This document shows positions 10,498 through 31,825 of a stretch of DNA of 64,000 bases, piece by piece. Below the pieces are notes generated by a model. The model ran no database searches and was not told the DNA's origin. It saw only the letters and a list, made by a program, of their open reading frames with translations. Both the position numbers and the translations under genes were made by a program. Positions within the stretch are counted from its first letter, which is position 1, and the number at the start of each line of letters is the position of its first letter. Origin of the DNA: Phytoactinopolyspora alkaliphila (lineage in GTDB: Bacteria > Actinomycetota > Actinomycetes > Jiangellales > Jiangellaceae); contig NZ_JAAGOB010000015.1 of the NCBI RefSeq assembly GCF_010550695.1, forward strand, positions 62,001-126,000. Direction: 5' to 3'.

Positions 10498-10625
10498 GCT
10501 CTTCTATCTGCCCGAAGAAGTTTCAACTCCATCGGTGACGATCGCCGACGATGGTACGGCCCCACGGTCCGCACTACGTGATGACTCAGGTCACCGCACT
10601 GCTGCCAGCCCAGACGCCCCCACCC

Positions 10626-10691
10626 GGTCGTCGTCAGCCCAGGTGCCGGTCGTCATCAGCCCAGGTGCCGGTCGTCATCAGCCCAGGTGCC
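10626..10691. repeat. Triplicated 22-bp unit at the 3' end of a hydrolase gene
   Basis: Three head-to-tail 22-bp units (10626-10647, 10648-10669, 10670-10691) differ at one base. The unit nearest the gene encodes the last residues and stop of the lipoprotein hydrolase; the other two are copies of that gene end lying downstream of it. Confidence 0.9.
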
Positions 10692-11847
10692 GGTCGAAGA
10701 ACTCCGCGGTCGTCTCGATGGACGCCTGCCACTGTGGCTCGAACGCGTGCTGTTCCCCTTCGTACACCTCAAGGGTCACATCCGCTCCCGCATCCGCCAG
10801 CGCGTCTCTGGTGTCATGAGCCCATTCGATCGGGCAAGTGTCGTCTGCCGTCCCGTGGTGCATCAGGACCGGCTCCGTCACCTGGTCGAAAAACGTGACC
10901 GGGGAAACGTCCTGCCAGAACCCCGGCGCGTCCTCGGGCGGACCGTAGGCATCGATGATCTCCTCGGTCAGCTCGGCCGCCTCGGGGTTTCCTCTCGTCC
11001 ACCGGTCGAAGTTGTCCACCGCGTCAGAGCTGACCGACGCGTACACGACGGCCGCATCCACCAGGCCCGGCTGGACGACGAGGGCGTTGAGCGTTACCCC
11101 GCCTCCCATCGACCGGCCGAGCAAGCCGACCCGGTCGCCGTCGAGGAACGGCAGCGACGAATCGCGGATCGCGAGCACGGCGTTCACCACATCTTCGGTG
11201 TATCCCAGGCGCAGTCGCACCTCGTTCTCCGGGTCGTCGTCGGACTGGGCGTGGTTGCGGTAGTCGGTATGCAGGACGGCGTACCCCTCCCGGGCAAGAT
11301 AGTCCTGCTCACGCGCGAGGCCGCGCCCGGTCGTGTAGATCTCCGGATCGATGTAGCCATGGGCGAGCACGAGTACGGGATGTGGACCGTCGCCCTCGGG
11401 GACGTTCATGATCCCCGAGACCGTCAGATCCCCGCTTCGGTACGTGACCGCGTATCGGATGTAACTGCCGGCATCTTCAAGGACATCCCCGAGCTCCAGA
11501 TCACCGCCATCGAACTCCTGCTCCATGAGTGCGGGTAGGGAGACCGGGTGCGGTGGCTCCGTCACCGGCGCCGAGGGTGAGGACGCCGTGTCCTCGCCCG
11601 CCGCGGGCGCTTCCGTCGGGGCGTCGGCCTCGGCGGGATCGGTCTCTGTCGAGTCCGTTTCGATGGGCTCGGGCGTACTCGGCGCGGGTCCCGTAGCGGG
11701 CTGCGTGGCGGACCCGGCCGCACCGTCGGCGCGACCGTCCGGGGCGCCGTCGTCGCCAGCAGAGCACGCCACCACACCGGTCATCGTCACGGCGACGAGC
11801 ATCGCGGCCCACGAGTGCACTCGATCGGCTCTCACACGCTCCATCAT
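10678..11847 (-). CDS. Secreted lipoprotein hydrolase (S9/acyl-peptidase-like alpha/beta fold)
   Basis: From ATG 11847 the protein has a basic N-terminus, a hydrophobic segment and lipobox VVAC, so it is probably lipid-anchored outside the membrane. About 75 residues rich in Thr/Pro/Glu/Ala form a linker to an alpha/beta hydrolase domain. The nucleophile motif is GRSMGGG, the Asp is in HHGTADDTCP and the His in GEQHAF, the order seen in prolyl-oligopeptidase (S9) and dienelactone-hydrolase relatives. It may cleave peptides or esters in the wall space; the substrate is unknown. It stands alone. Its last codons are copied twice downstream (10626-10691). Confidence 0.85.
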   Translation of the reverse strand: MMERVRADRVHSWAAMLVAVTMTGVVACSAGDDGAPDGRADGAAGSATQPATGPAPSTPEPIETDSTETDPAEADAPTEAPAAGEDTASSPSAPVTEPPHPVSLPALMEQEFDGGDLELGDVLEDAGSYIRYAVTYRSGDLTVSGIMNVPEGDGPHPVLVLAHGYIDPEIYTTGRGLAREQDYLAREGYAVLHTDYRNHAQSDDDPENEVRLRLGYTEDVVNAVLAIRDSSLPFLDGDRVGLLGRSMGGGVTLNALVVQPGLVDAAVVYASVSSDAVDNFDRWTRGNPEAAELTEEIIDAYGPPEDAPGFWQDVSPVTFFDQVTEPVLMHHGTADDTCPIEWAHDTRDALADAGADVTLEVYEGEQHAFEPQWQASIETTAEFFDRHLG

Positions 11848-27948: not shown

Positions 27949-28310
27949 GGCAATCCCGTCCGGATACACCTTGATAACAGTCATCGTGGTGCTTGACTAC
28001 CAAACCGGCATCTCCGGGTCAGGGTTCACCGCTGGCGCCGGTTCCGTCATGGAAAGCATCTGACCGGCCGATCACGGCTTTGACCAGGCCATTTGAGACC
28101 ACGTACCTCGTGTCGCCACCCTCGCTCCGGATGCCGTTCAGGGTCCGGGGCGGGGCGTGGACACTTCCACGACACTCACATTTCGCGCTTCGTTTCTAGT
28201 TACATCTATCGTCAGCGATGTTAAATCTGTTACTGTCGGCTCGATCGTTCACGTGAATGACGGTCAGCCAGACAGTACAGACCAGTACCACGCCCCTGGA
28301 AGGCACTTCG
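27949..28310. other. Non-coding gap between the two ABC import regions
   Basis: No gene is supported. The first 240 bases show nothing recognisable; the operator at 28198-28233 lies at the right end, then a short leader to the TTG start at 28311. Confidence 0.6.
28198..28233 (+). promoter_or_regulatory. Operator/promoter of the second ABC import operon
   Basis: AGTTA, TCTATCGT, GTTAA and CTGTTA occur with the same spacing as in 21349-21384 (GTTA at 28199, 28220 and 28229). Identity is 25 of 36 bases although flanking DNA is unrelated, so the two operons probably share one repressor. Confidence 0.68.
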
Positions 28311-29282
28311 TTGACGTCTCACTCCACGGCATCGCCGCCCTCGTCCATCGGCGGCGACGCCGGTGCGCGCGGCGCAGCTGACCGTACCGTGACGCGGCGC
28401 CGGCGACGCCGCCACAGCCGCGAGTACCTCCTGTTCCTTGTCCTCGTCTCCCCGAACCTGCTGCTGATCGGCACGTTCGAGTACTGGCCGGTGATCTACA
28501 ACGCTTACCTGAGCCTGACTCGCTGGAACATGTTGTCAGGTGTGCCGGTCTGGGTGGGCCTGGACAACTACCAGAGCCTGTTGACCAGTTCGAGCTTCCA
28601 CACGGTCATGTACAACACGCTGCTGTTCACCGGCACCGTCGTGATCGGGAGCGTCGTGATCGGGTTGGCCCTCGCGGTGTTGTTCAACCAGAAGGTACGC
28701 GGCCGCGGATTCGTCCGCACGGTCGCCTTCGCCCCGCACATCGTGAGCGGCGCGGCGGTCGCCACCCTCTGGCTGTTCATCTTCAACCCGGACTACGGAC
28801 TGTCCCGCTTCGTGCTCAATCAGGTGGGGCTCTCTTCGCCGCGGTGGGTCTCGGACAGCGACTGGGCGCTGGCGAGCCTGATCATCGTGTTCCTCTGGAA
28901 GGGCATCGGGTTCGTCGCGATCGTCTACCTCGCCGGGCTGCAAAGCCTGCCGGAGGACGTCTACGAGGCGGCCAAGCTCGACGGCGCCCGGGCATGGACC
29001 ACATTCCGGCGGATCACTCTCCCGCTGTTGTCTCCGGTGACGTTCTTCGTGCTGGTCATCACCATCATCGGCACGTTCCAGGCGTACGACATGATCGCCG
29101 TGATGACCGGCGGCGGTCCGGGGAACGCCACGACCACCCTCTCCTGGTACATCTACGAACAGGGGTTCCAGGCTTCTGACGCCGGCCGCGCGGCCGCGAG
29201 CGCCATGATCCTCTTCGTCATCCTGCTCATCGTCACCGGTCTGCAGACGAAGTATGCGCAGCGCAAGGTCCACTACCAATGA
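28311..29282 (+). CDS. Carbohydrate ABC transporter permease (UgpA/MalF type)
   Basis: A permease of about 323 residues with an Arg-rich cytoplasmic N-terminus (TVTRRRRRRHSREYLLF), six helices and the EAA loop VYEAAKLDGARAWTTFRRIT. TTG 28311 is preferred because GGAAGG lies seven bases upstream; ATG 28257 in the same frame has no ribosome site and sits close to the operator. The stop overlaps the next permease start (ATGA, 29279-29282). No ATPase gene is present in the operon. Confidence 0.9.
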   Translation: MTSHSTASPPSSIGGDAGARGAADRTVTRRRRRRHSREYLLFLVLVSPNLLLIGTFEYWPVIYNAYLSLTRWNMLSGVPVWVGLDNYQSLLTSSSFHTVMYNTLLFTGTVVIGSVVIGLALAVLFNQKVRGRGFVRTVAFAPHIVSGAAVATLWLFIFNPDYGLSRFVLNQVGLSSPRWVSDSDWALASLIIVFLWKGIGFVAIVYLAGLQSLPEDVYEAAKLDGARAWTTFRRITLPLLSPVTFFVLVITIIGTFQAYDMIAVMTGGGPGNATTTLSWYIYEQGFQASDAGRAAASAMILFVILLIVTGLQTKYAQRKVHYQ

Positions 29283-29464
29283 GCGGCGAGACGAGGAGCG
29301 AGCGTAGTGGACGGTCCGACGAAGGAGGTCCGGCCGCGGAGCAAGCGACGAACCGAGCGCGACCACAGGCAATGAGCGGCGAGACGAGGAGCGAGCGTAG
29401 TGGACGGTCCGACGAAGGAGGTCCGGCCGCGGAGCAAGCGACGAACCGAGCGCGACCAGAGGCA
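29279..29464. repeat. Two 93-bp in-frame tandem repeats at a permease junction
   Basis: Units 29279-29371 and 29372-29464 are identical except for one base (Gln versus Glu codon). Each is 31 codons, begins ATGAGCGGCGAG and ends with ...GGCA before the next ATG, so the ATGA-type junction and reading frame are preserved. A partial third version (ATGAGGAACGAGAGGAGCG) follows at 29465. Confidence 0.95.
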
Positions 29465-30382
29465 ATGAGGAACGAGAGGAGCGAAGGGGTGGCCATCGAC
29501 GAGCGGACCACGTCCCAGGAGGCCCAGCGACGGCGCACAGGCCCCAACACCCGGGACGGCGAGACCGTGGTCCGCAAAGTTCTTCTCTATGCCGCCCTGG
29601 TGGCGGTGGCTCTCCTGTTCATCGGCCCGCTGTACTGGCTGTTCTCGTCCGCGCTGAAAGAGCCCGGCGACATCTACCAGTACCCTCCGCATTGGGTGCC
29701 GCTGCGACCACACGTGGAGAATTTCGCCAACGCCTGGCAGGCCGCGCCGTTCGGCAACTTCTTCATGAACTCACTGATCGTGACGGCAGGTGGCGCAGCG
29801 ATCAAGCTGGTCAACGCCACGCTCACCGCGTACGCGTTCGTCTTCCTGCGGTTCCCGTTCAAGAACGTGCTCTTCCTGGTGATGCTCGGCGCGCTGATGG
29901 TGCCGAACAACGTCACCTTGATCGTCAACTACATCACGGTGTCCAACCTGGGCTGGATCAACACGTACCTGGGCCTGATCATCCCGAGTGCCGGTTCCAT
30001 CTTCGGCATGTTCCTCCTGCGCCAGTACATGATGACGCTGCCGAGGGACATCATCGAAGCAGCCAAGGTGGACGGTGCCGGCCACATACGCACGTTGTGG
30101 CAAGTGGTCCTGCCCATGTGCAAGCCGATGCTCGTCACGGTCGCCATCATCGCCATCGTCGACATGTGGAACGACTTCATCTGGCCACTGATCGTCACCA
30201 ACACGGTGGAGATGCGGACTCTGCCCATCGGCCTGCTCTACCTGCGCACCACCGAGGGCTACTCCAACTGGGGAGCGATCATGGCAGGCACGGTCATGGT
30301 GGCGCTCCCGATGCTGATCCTCTTCCTGTTTGCCCAGCGGCACATCGTCCGCGGTCTGACCGGCGGCGCCGTCAAGGGCTAG
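29279..30382 (+). CDS. Carbohydrate ABC transporter permease (UgpE/MalG type) with repeated N-terminus
   Basis: The core (from about residue 95) is a standard six-helix permease with EAA loop IIEAAKVDGAGHIRTLWQVV and C-terminal HIVRGLTGGAVKG. The annotated N-terminus from ATG 29279 adds two copies of a 31-residue polar peptide (MSGETRSERSGRSDEGG and onward) made by the 93-bp DNA repeat. ATGs at 29372 and 29465 are in frame and each would give a shorter protein; which is used is unclear. Overlap with the previous gene favours 29279. It pairs with the 28311 permease. Confidence 0.87.
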   Translation: MSGETRSERSGRSDEGGPAAEQATNRARPQAMSGETRSERSGRSDEGGPAAEQATNRARPEAMRNERSEGVAIDERTTSQEAQRRRTGPNTRDGETVVRKVLLYAALVAVALLFIGPLYWLFSSALKEPGDIYQYPPHWVPLRPHVENFANAWQAAPFGNFFMNSLIVTAGGAAIKLVNATLTAYAFVFLRFPFKNVLFLVMLGALMVPNNVTLIVNYITVSNLGWINTYLGLIIPSAGSIFGMFLLRQYMMTLPRDIIEAAKVDGAGHIRTLWQVVLPMCKPMLVTVAIIAIVDMWNDFIWPLIVTNTVEMRTLPIGLLYLRTTEGYSNWGAIMAGTVMVALPMLILFLFAQRHIVRGLTGGAVKG

Positions 30383-30430: not shown

Positions 30431-31825
30431 ATGAGTAACAGACTTCCCCGTCACAGTTCCCTCCGCCGGCCGAGCCGCCGGTCCTTCCTCGGCATGACCG
30501 CTGCCGGCCTGAGCGTGCCGATCCTGGGCTCGTGCGCAGGTGGCGTCAGTTCCAGCGACGACGGCGAGGGTGGCGGGAACGAACTCGGCCAGGTCGACAT
30601 CAGCCCGCCCAGCAAGTACCGCGGACGTGACGTGAACGTCGTCATGTGGAGCGCCATGGGCGGTGTCAACGGCGAGGCCCTCGACGCGCTGGTCGAGAAG
30701 TTCAACGAGTCGCAGGATTCCATCTACGCCGAGGTCCAATTCCAGGGCAACTACCACGAGTCGTCGCCCAAGCTGACCGCGGCGTTGCGCGCCGGTGCCG
30801 TGCCGGACATCATGATGCTCGCCGACACATTCTGGGGCAGGTTCCTGCTCAACGACGTTTTGGAGCCGCTGAACGGCTACTTGACCGACGACTTCAACCG
30901 CGACAACTATGTCGAGGCTCTGTTCGACGAAGGGCTCGTCGGTGATGAGCTGTACTGGCTGTCCTACGGCCGCAGCACGCCGCTGTTCTACTACAACAAG
31001 GACGCGTTCGCTGAGATCGGCCTACCCGACCGCGGGCCGGAGACGTGGACCGAGCTGCGCGAGTGGGGCGCGGAGCTGTCCAAGCTGACTGTGCAGGGCC
31101 AGCCGCTGAAGGTGCACGCCTTCACCGGGGATGACGACTGGCAGTTCATGTCCGCTGCCTGGCAGTTCGGCGGCAGCCTCTCCGACGGTCTCGATGTCAC
31201 CATCAACACCGGCGGTGCCGTCGACGCGGCCGCATGGCAGCAGCGGTTCATCTTCGAGGACCAGATGGGCTACATGGCGGAGAGCTCCGCGGTCGACTTC
31301 GGCACCGGCGTCGTCGCCACCACCATCACCTCCACCGGTGCGCTGCGCGGCATTTACGAGAACGCTGAGTTCGAGGTGGGCACCGCGTTCCTGCCGGCAG
31401 AGGTCACCACCGGCGTCCCCACCGGCGGCATGGGCTTCTCCCTGCTGCGCGACGTGCCGCAGGAGCGCAAGGACGCCGCCTTCGAGGTATTGAAGTTCCT
31501 CGGCCAGCCGGACAACGCGGCGGAATGGAGCCTTGCGTCCGGATACCTGCCGATCGTCAAAGCAGCGGTCGATGAGCCTGAGCTCGCCGAACAGATCGCG
31601 GAGGACCCGAACCGCAGCACGGCGGTGGAGCAGCTGCCGATGGCTCAAGGTAGCGACGCGATCCGCTCCTACCTGCCCAACGGCACGGACATCATCATCA
31701 GCGGACTGCAGGAGATCTTCAGCAGTGGTAGCGCGGACGTCCAGAGCGTCTTCGACCGCGTAGCAGGCGAGCTGGAGGAAGGCGTCGAGCGCATCCGGGA
31801 CGACTACGACCGCTACTTCGGCTAG
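30431..31825 (+). CDS. Extracellular solute-binding lipoprotein (UgpB-like), Tat-exported
   Basis: The 464-residue protein has a Tat motif and lipobox in one signal (RRSFLGMTAAGLSVPILGSC). The binding domain has MWSAMGGVNGEALDALV, FQGNYHESSPKL, SYGRSTPLFYYNKDAFAE and a family-1 fold, like the 21483 protein but clearly diverged, so a related yet different ligand is likely. ATG 30431 follows GAAAGGA. It lies after the two permeases and before a 21-bp hairpin and a GDPD gene, giving the second operon an order permease-permease-binding protein-GDPD. Confidence 0.88.
   Translation: MSNRLPRHSSLRRPSRRSFLGMTAAGLSVPILGSCAGGVSSSDDGEGGGNELGQVDISPPSKYRGRDVNVVMWSAMGGVNGEALDALVEKFNESQDSIYAEVQFQGNYHESSPKLTAALRAGAVPDIMMLADTFWGRFLLNDVLEPLNGYLTDDFNRDNYVEALFDEGLVGDELYWLSYGRSTPLFYYNKDAFAEIGLPDRGPETWTELREWGAELSKLTVQGQPLKVHAFTGDDDWQFMSAAWQFGGSLSDGLDVTINTGGAVDAAAWQQRFIFEDQMGYMAESSAVDFGTGVVATTITSTGALRGIYENAEFEVGTAFLPAEVTTGVPTGGMGFSLLRDVPQERKDAAFEVLKFLGQPDNAAEWSLASGYLPIVKAAVDEPELAEQIAEDPNRSTAVEQLPMAQGSDAIRSYLPNGTDIIISGLQEIFSSGSADVQSVFDRVAGELEEGVERIRDDYDRYFG

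Follow-up and report, generated by a model that had tools for sequence, protein, structure and literature searches.

What is a 93-bp sequence, present twice in tandem, doing at the start of an ABC sugar permease gene, and does it belong to that gene alone? The question arises in a stretch of 64,000 nucleotides, called the window in the following, in which two permease genes overlap by an ATGA and the second opens with both units. The features of this locus are, line by line:

28257..29282 (+): upstream ABC sugar permease (BPD_transp_1)
29279..29282 (+): ATGA overlap between the upstream permease stop and the ATG of unit 1, matching the empty site of relatives
29279..30382 (+): downstream ABC sugar permease ORF (BPD_transp_1), 367 codons, of which the first 62 are both units
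29279..29371 (+): repeat unit 1, 93 bp, 31 codons, MSGETRSERSGRSDEGGPAAEQATNRARPQA, covariance-model match of 99 bits
29307..29375 (+): mini-ORF in unit 1, GTG start with a strong Shine-Dalgarno, terminated by the TGA within the following ATGA
29372..29464 (+): repeat unit 2, differing from unit 1 at one base, detected as tandem repeat and as covariance-model match
29400..29468 (+): equivalent mini-ORF in unit 2, GTG start with a strong Shine-Dalgarno
29465..29493 (+): degenerate partial third copy of the 5' end of the unit, including ATG 29465 and GTG 29489
29475-29482 (+): Shine-Dalgarno AGAGGAGC within the third partial copy
30431..31825 (+): solute-binding protein gene, the next gene of the permease cluster

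An earlier sequence-only reading had described an in-frame duplication of 93 bp with a one-base difference that keeps the ATGA junction, and this description is borne out. The units at 29279-29371 and 29372-29464 mismatch at 1 of 93 positions, Tandem Repeats Finder reports positions 29277-29469 with a period of 93, 2.1 copies, 99% match and a score of 379, and ATG 29279 shares bases with the stop codon that ends the upstream permease. As this score is by far the highest among the 17 Tandem Repeats Finder rows of the window, the arrangement is far from what chance would give. The third partial copy claimed in the same reading does begin at 29465, but it is degenerate: only its first few bases are exact, the remainder resembling the 5' end of the unit. 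Similarly, the three start codons that it counted (ATG 29279, 29372 and 29465) do share one open frame of 367 codons, but a fourth in-frame start, GTG 29489, had been missed. Elsewhere in the window, a 22-bp unit is repeated at positions 10624-10696 (3.3 copies, 98% match).

The repeat is not confined to the permease junction. A DNA search of its own genome, a draft assembly of 33 contigs, returned 19 places at E<=1, including arrays at the thyA-folA, tal-pgi and nuoD-nuoE junctions (at junctions, gene names were read from the sequence on either side, unless Pfam is cited); the further copies whose search had been advised are thus present. A covariance model built from 13 units, R1, found 106 matches in all five Phytoactinopolyspora genomes (21, 28, 32, 18 and 7), and it had matches in 14 of the 22 genomes of the taxonomic family, in 34 of the 296 of the class and in 5 of the 14 named ones. 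Identical match coordinates link G002, G003 and G004 to P. halotolerans, P. endophytica and P. limicola; the scan of named genomes returned Phytoactinopolyspora as the genus and Jiangella as a neighbour. With a second model, R2, used with strict filters and 10 candidates scored per genome, the own genome stood alone among 396 genomes of the phylum. Run directly on the R1 loci, R2 gave 20 matches, so the difference in spread between the two models is one of sampling or filtering. As for earlier descriptions, Rfam at gathering scores gave no match within the 64-kb window, a literature search, whose scope left out most subscription journals, found no description of the element, and the accessible portions of PMC12306157 and PMC4255298 hold nothing on it.

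We consider it likely, for this reading as a whole, that the 93-bp unit belongs to a family of short palindromic elements dispersed through actinobacterial genomes, which lie in sense orientation at DTGA overlaps and carry an open frame of 3n length, so that read-through adds a polar tail to the next protein. The view of the unit as an intergenic repeat that has become coding therefore captures part of the situation, as the repeat is genome-wide and in frame with the permease, but it falls short in that the element is structured and interspersed, lies in sense at stop/start overlaps, has an open sense frame and also occurs in frame inside genes.

The genomic position of the element was surveyed for all R1 arrays of the genus, the other genomes of the taxonomic family in the survey being G005 (9 of 10 matches) and G014 (7 of 8), with flanking genes called by a codon-score gene caller. 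By R1, the surveyed loci hold 123 units in 86 arrays, of which 67 lie in sense between co-directional genes, 3 are antisense, 7 are flanked by divergent and 2 by convergent genes, 6 fall within called genes and 1 is at the end of a contig; counted by orthologous junction (n=61), the same classes number 44, 3, 5, 2, 6 and 1. After three sense arrays containing N were dropped, 64 could be scored for their register relative to the upstream gene. In 25 of them, the window included, the last base of the upstream stop falls on position 4 of the unit (register A); it falls on position 16-17 in 10 and on position 11 in 4. In register A, the first four bases of the unit are the DTGA stop of the upstream gene. 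Copy number at shared junctions differs between species.

At these sites the reading frame is preserved. The first unit, mostly 93 or 99 bp in register A, is both stop-free in the frame of its first ATG and 3n long in 22 of the 25 register-A arrays versus 13 of 46 elsewhere, many of the 25 being one 99-bp subfamily found mainly in two species; the cases are hence not fully independent, and a founder effect may account in part for the 3n length. Counted per junction, the frame is preserved in 17/20 register-A cases versus 12/39 others (Fisher p=9e-5). Of the 91 different units of full length, 75 have an open sense frame 0 (43.8 in shuffled units, sd 4.5), compared with 14 for frame 1 and 24 for frame 2 (about 46 when shuffled).

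We propose that the main sites at which units insert, or at which they are tolerated, are DTGA stop/start overlaps within operons, where they take the sense orientation. The DTGA that opens the unit would then provide the stop of the upstream gene, and a DTGA or a start just past the unit would remain for the downstream gene. A ribosome starting or re-initiating at the first ATG would read through the stop-free unit, whose peptide is rich in R, S, E, G and A, and each copy would thereby lengthen the next protein by 31-33 residues, forming a polar tail that is probably disordered. Tandem duplication would change the copy number. The element's own DTGA, together with its open 3n frame, would keep the operon translated. 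Presumably the element is mobile, and it probably serves no host function.

Whether such a tail is made can be judged in part from the ribosome-binding signals. Across the family of elements, Shine-Dalgarno medians are -8.0 before the first unit versus -5.6 right after the array (Wilcoxon p=0.003), and the signal before the first unit is also stronger than that of 69 other called starts (-5.0). The window reverses this order, with a value of -3.3 at ATG 29279 versus -8.3 at GTG 29489, the best among the in-frame candidate starts of the downstream permease. The tail of this permease may therefore not be made, and the start of the protein may lie at 29465 or at GTG 29489; translation from the first unit is an inference. 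An AlphaFold model of the downstream permease, weak overall (mean pLDDT 52) and used solely for this point, predicts at low confidence that residues 1-75 lack secondary structure.

These signals also fit a different account, in which the units couple the two genes in the manner of the mycobacterial interspersed repetitive units (MIRUs): they would be translated as mini-ORFs only, re-initiation would take place at the ATGA, and the permease would start at 29465 or 29489 and contain no repeat residues. Both units of the window indeed have a GTG mini-ORF with a Shine-Dalgarno of -8.1 that ends at the next ATGA, the best in-frame start signal lies at GTG 29489, and an internal ORF that couples genes with a spacing of -4 nt is described for MIRUs in the accessible part of PMC12548453. 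However, a mini-ORF ending exactly at the post-array ATGA is found in 9 of the 25 register-A arrays, the window among the nine, versus 22 of 25 for the read-through frame, and we rejected the mini-ORF as a general rule on these counts. The in-frame units within MurE and NuoL described below, which indicate that a unit can form part of a protein, likewise speak against this account, and we regard it as unlikely.

Copies within proteins make up 6 of the 86 arrays. They lie in frame within longer ORFs, all six have lengths that are multiples of 3, and they use unit frame 2 in five cases and frame 0 in one; as out-of-frame inserts would escape calling as internal copies, this set of six is biased to in-frame cases. 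The copies are:

L214: in-frame internal unit in MurE (Pfam)
L254: in-frame internal unit in NuoL (Pfam)
L257: in-frame internal unit in RecO (Pfam)
L240: in-frame internal unit in an MGH1-like glycosidase (Pfam)
L208: in-frame internal unit in IucA/IucC (Pfam)
L186:1486-3102 (-): own genome, three tandem 93-bp units in frame, adding 93 residues between CbiX and 2Fe-2S matches

In the L186 ORF, both the CbiX and the 2Fe-2S matches are just below the Pfam cut-offs; the gene caller had classed this array between genes, and it was then moved to the in-gene set. The L212 array, 'inside' according to the gene caller, is a fusion at the start of a gene and was excluded as non-internal. NuoL aligns with the solved NuoL 8e9g_L over 39-676, with a gap of 19 residues exactly at the unit, and alignments of MurE are interrupted at the position of the unit, which among 21 aligned MurE proteins of the taxonomic family is present in G003 only. 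The MurE of G002 (L280) has a longer, unrelated insert at the domain boundary where G003 has the unit.

How does this element relate to known ones? MIRUs target DTGA and are not known to have dyad symmetry. Like them, the element consists of short interspersed direct repeats, often in tandem and within operons (67/86 arrays between co-directional genes), its site is the DTGA stop/start overlap (25/64 at position 4 and 10/64 at 16-17, with empty sites in relatives), and it is oriented with the genes (67 arrays in sense versus 3 antisense; 44 junctions versus 3). By contrast, an internal ORF ending at the next start with a -4 nt spacing occurs here in 9/25 register-A arrays, and the unit has an end-to-end covarying hairpin. 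The units are also mostly 87-99 bp, usually 3n at DTGA sites, and predicted to read through into the next protein instead of stopping at the next TGA, and copies occur in frame inside genes, a comparison made by description only. In the accessible parts of the literature, MIRUs appear as mobile-looking units that insert at start codons (Supply et al. 1997, as cited in PMC12548453; PMC4213456), with 77- and 53-bp units at senX3-regX3 and ETR-D/MIRU04 whose tandem copy number varies (PMC2453075).

A second group of relevance is that of the Rickettsia palindromic elements (RPEs), portrayed in the available text of PMC10969869, PMC3733652 and PMC2996958 as in-frame coding palindromes in unrelated housekeeping genes, with cases in Wolbachia and Methanocaldococcus. 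The element resembles them as a palindrome and by its in-frame insertion in unrelated conserved genes (6/86 arrays). It differs from RPEs and from the Wolbachia and Methanocaldococcus palindromes by its high-GC actinobacterial lineage, its main target, the operon stop/start overlap, its tandem arrays and its GA-rich ladder hairpin, again compared by description only. As it shares the target of MIRUs and the in-frame life of RPEs but lacks MIRU-defining features, it appears to be a variant within known kinds.

The unit is a covarying hairpin, the sense strand of which is able to fold end to end. RNAalifold on a MAFFT alignment of 13 units (A1) gave 21 pairs, 10 of them with compensatory changes, with 96.7% paired cells versus 84.8% in shuffled alignments and a covariation score of 0.410 versus 0.194 shuffled and <=0.096 for slid versions. 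With 111 distinct units fitted to the model (A2), paired cells reach 95.2% versus 82.2% shuffled, two-sided changes are present in 20/21 pairs versus 12.7, and the score is 0.392 versus 0.190 shuffled and <=0.067 slid. Twenty units from outside Jiangellaceae (A3) still show two-sided changes in 13/21 pairs versus 7.8 shuffled and a score of 0.395 versus 0.161. At four positions, internal loops have GA facing GA in 85, 91, 76 and 85 of the 111 units, which we take to be the tandem sheared G.A motif, present on the sense strand only. The sense strand would form a hairpin in which short G-C rungs alternate with GA dinucleotides that face each other. As for the folding of single copies, 7 of 8 units are close to their shuffles (z -1.63 to +0.72, the window copy at +0.72), and one thyA-folA copy folds well beyond them (z -6.4). 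We set aside single-copy folding as weak evidence of structure, and the hairpin claim hence rests on covariation.

A hairpin of this kind might be kept as an RNA element, as in REP sequences, acting in mRNA decay or termination between operon genes, the open frame being incidental. Strong covariation and the sense orientation are in keeping with such a role, and the element shares with REP/BIME elements, which have RAYT transposases, the short interspersed hairpins and a possible effect on mRNA. Nevertheless, its unit of about 93 nt is sense-oriented and frame-preserving, the frame is kept at DTGA sites, in-frame copies lie inside genes, and most single copies fold no better than shuffles. REP elements are moved by Y1 transposases. 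No Y1_Tnp domain (PF01797) was found in the 22 genomes of the taxonomic family (control rings, 5/14), which argues against this account and led us to reject a Y1/RAYT transposase as the mover. Altogether, an RNA element of this type appears quite improbable.

Returning to the reading of the unit as an interspersed coding palindrome, relatives show sites with and without it. Among 12 relatives compared at the permease junction, G003 has one unit, G002 a remnant and 10 none; the G002 sequence is, in our own reading, probably a remnant left by internal deletion. A bare ATGA is found in G001, whose permease is 91% identical, and in eight g3 genomes, and G004 has a short gap and no unit. At thyA-folA, compared in 11 genomes, G000 has two units, G001, G004 and G005 a bare ATGA, and five g3 genomes a bare GTGA. 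That the tandem is a local duplication or an assembly artefact of no wider meaning is highly improbable, since, although its genome is a draft, the family is tandem in many genomes, including three copies in the one-contig genome G014, and a unit lies at the same permease junction in another species. At thyA-folA, G003 and G002 (L266, L270) have a different palindromic insert where the genome of the window carries the unit. L024 and L265 are remnants with the first 7-8 and the last 11-13 bases of the unit, as though the inside of the hairpin had been lost.

Tentatively, and with doubt outweighing confidence, we also put forward a broader view: a palindrome of actinobacteria that colonises proteins, acting as an RNA or ssDNA hairpin with no known transposase, might spread into termination/re-initiation sites and occasionally into enzymes that are essential, MurE and complex I among them. 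Because it carries an open frame, each jump would add about 31 residues rather than kill the operon. As far as the accessible literature goes, the coding palindromes described so far come from one archaeon and from bacteria that live inside cells, Rickettsia and Wolbachia. With an element linked to stop/start overlaps and a particular hairpin in actinobacteria that can be cultivated, it becomes testable how such elements move, how operons are spared polar damage by a mobile element and where new disordered stretches of protein come from. At the nuoD-nuoE junction, the unit is found in several genera and in family f17 (L168, L170, L150, L151, L190, L219 and L245), which reflects either a recurrent target or an old insertion.
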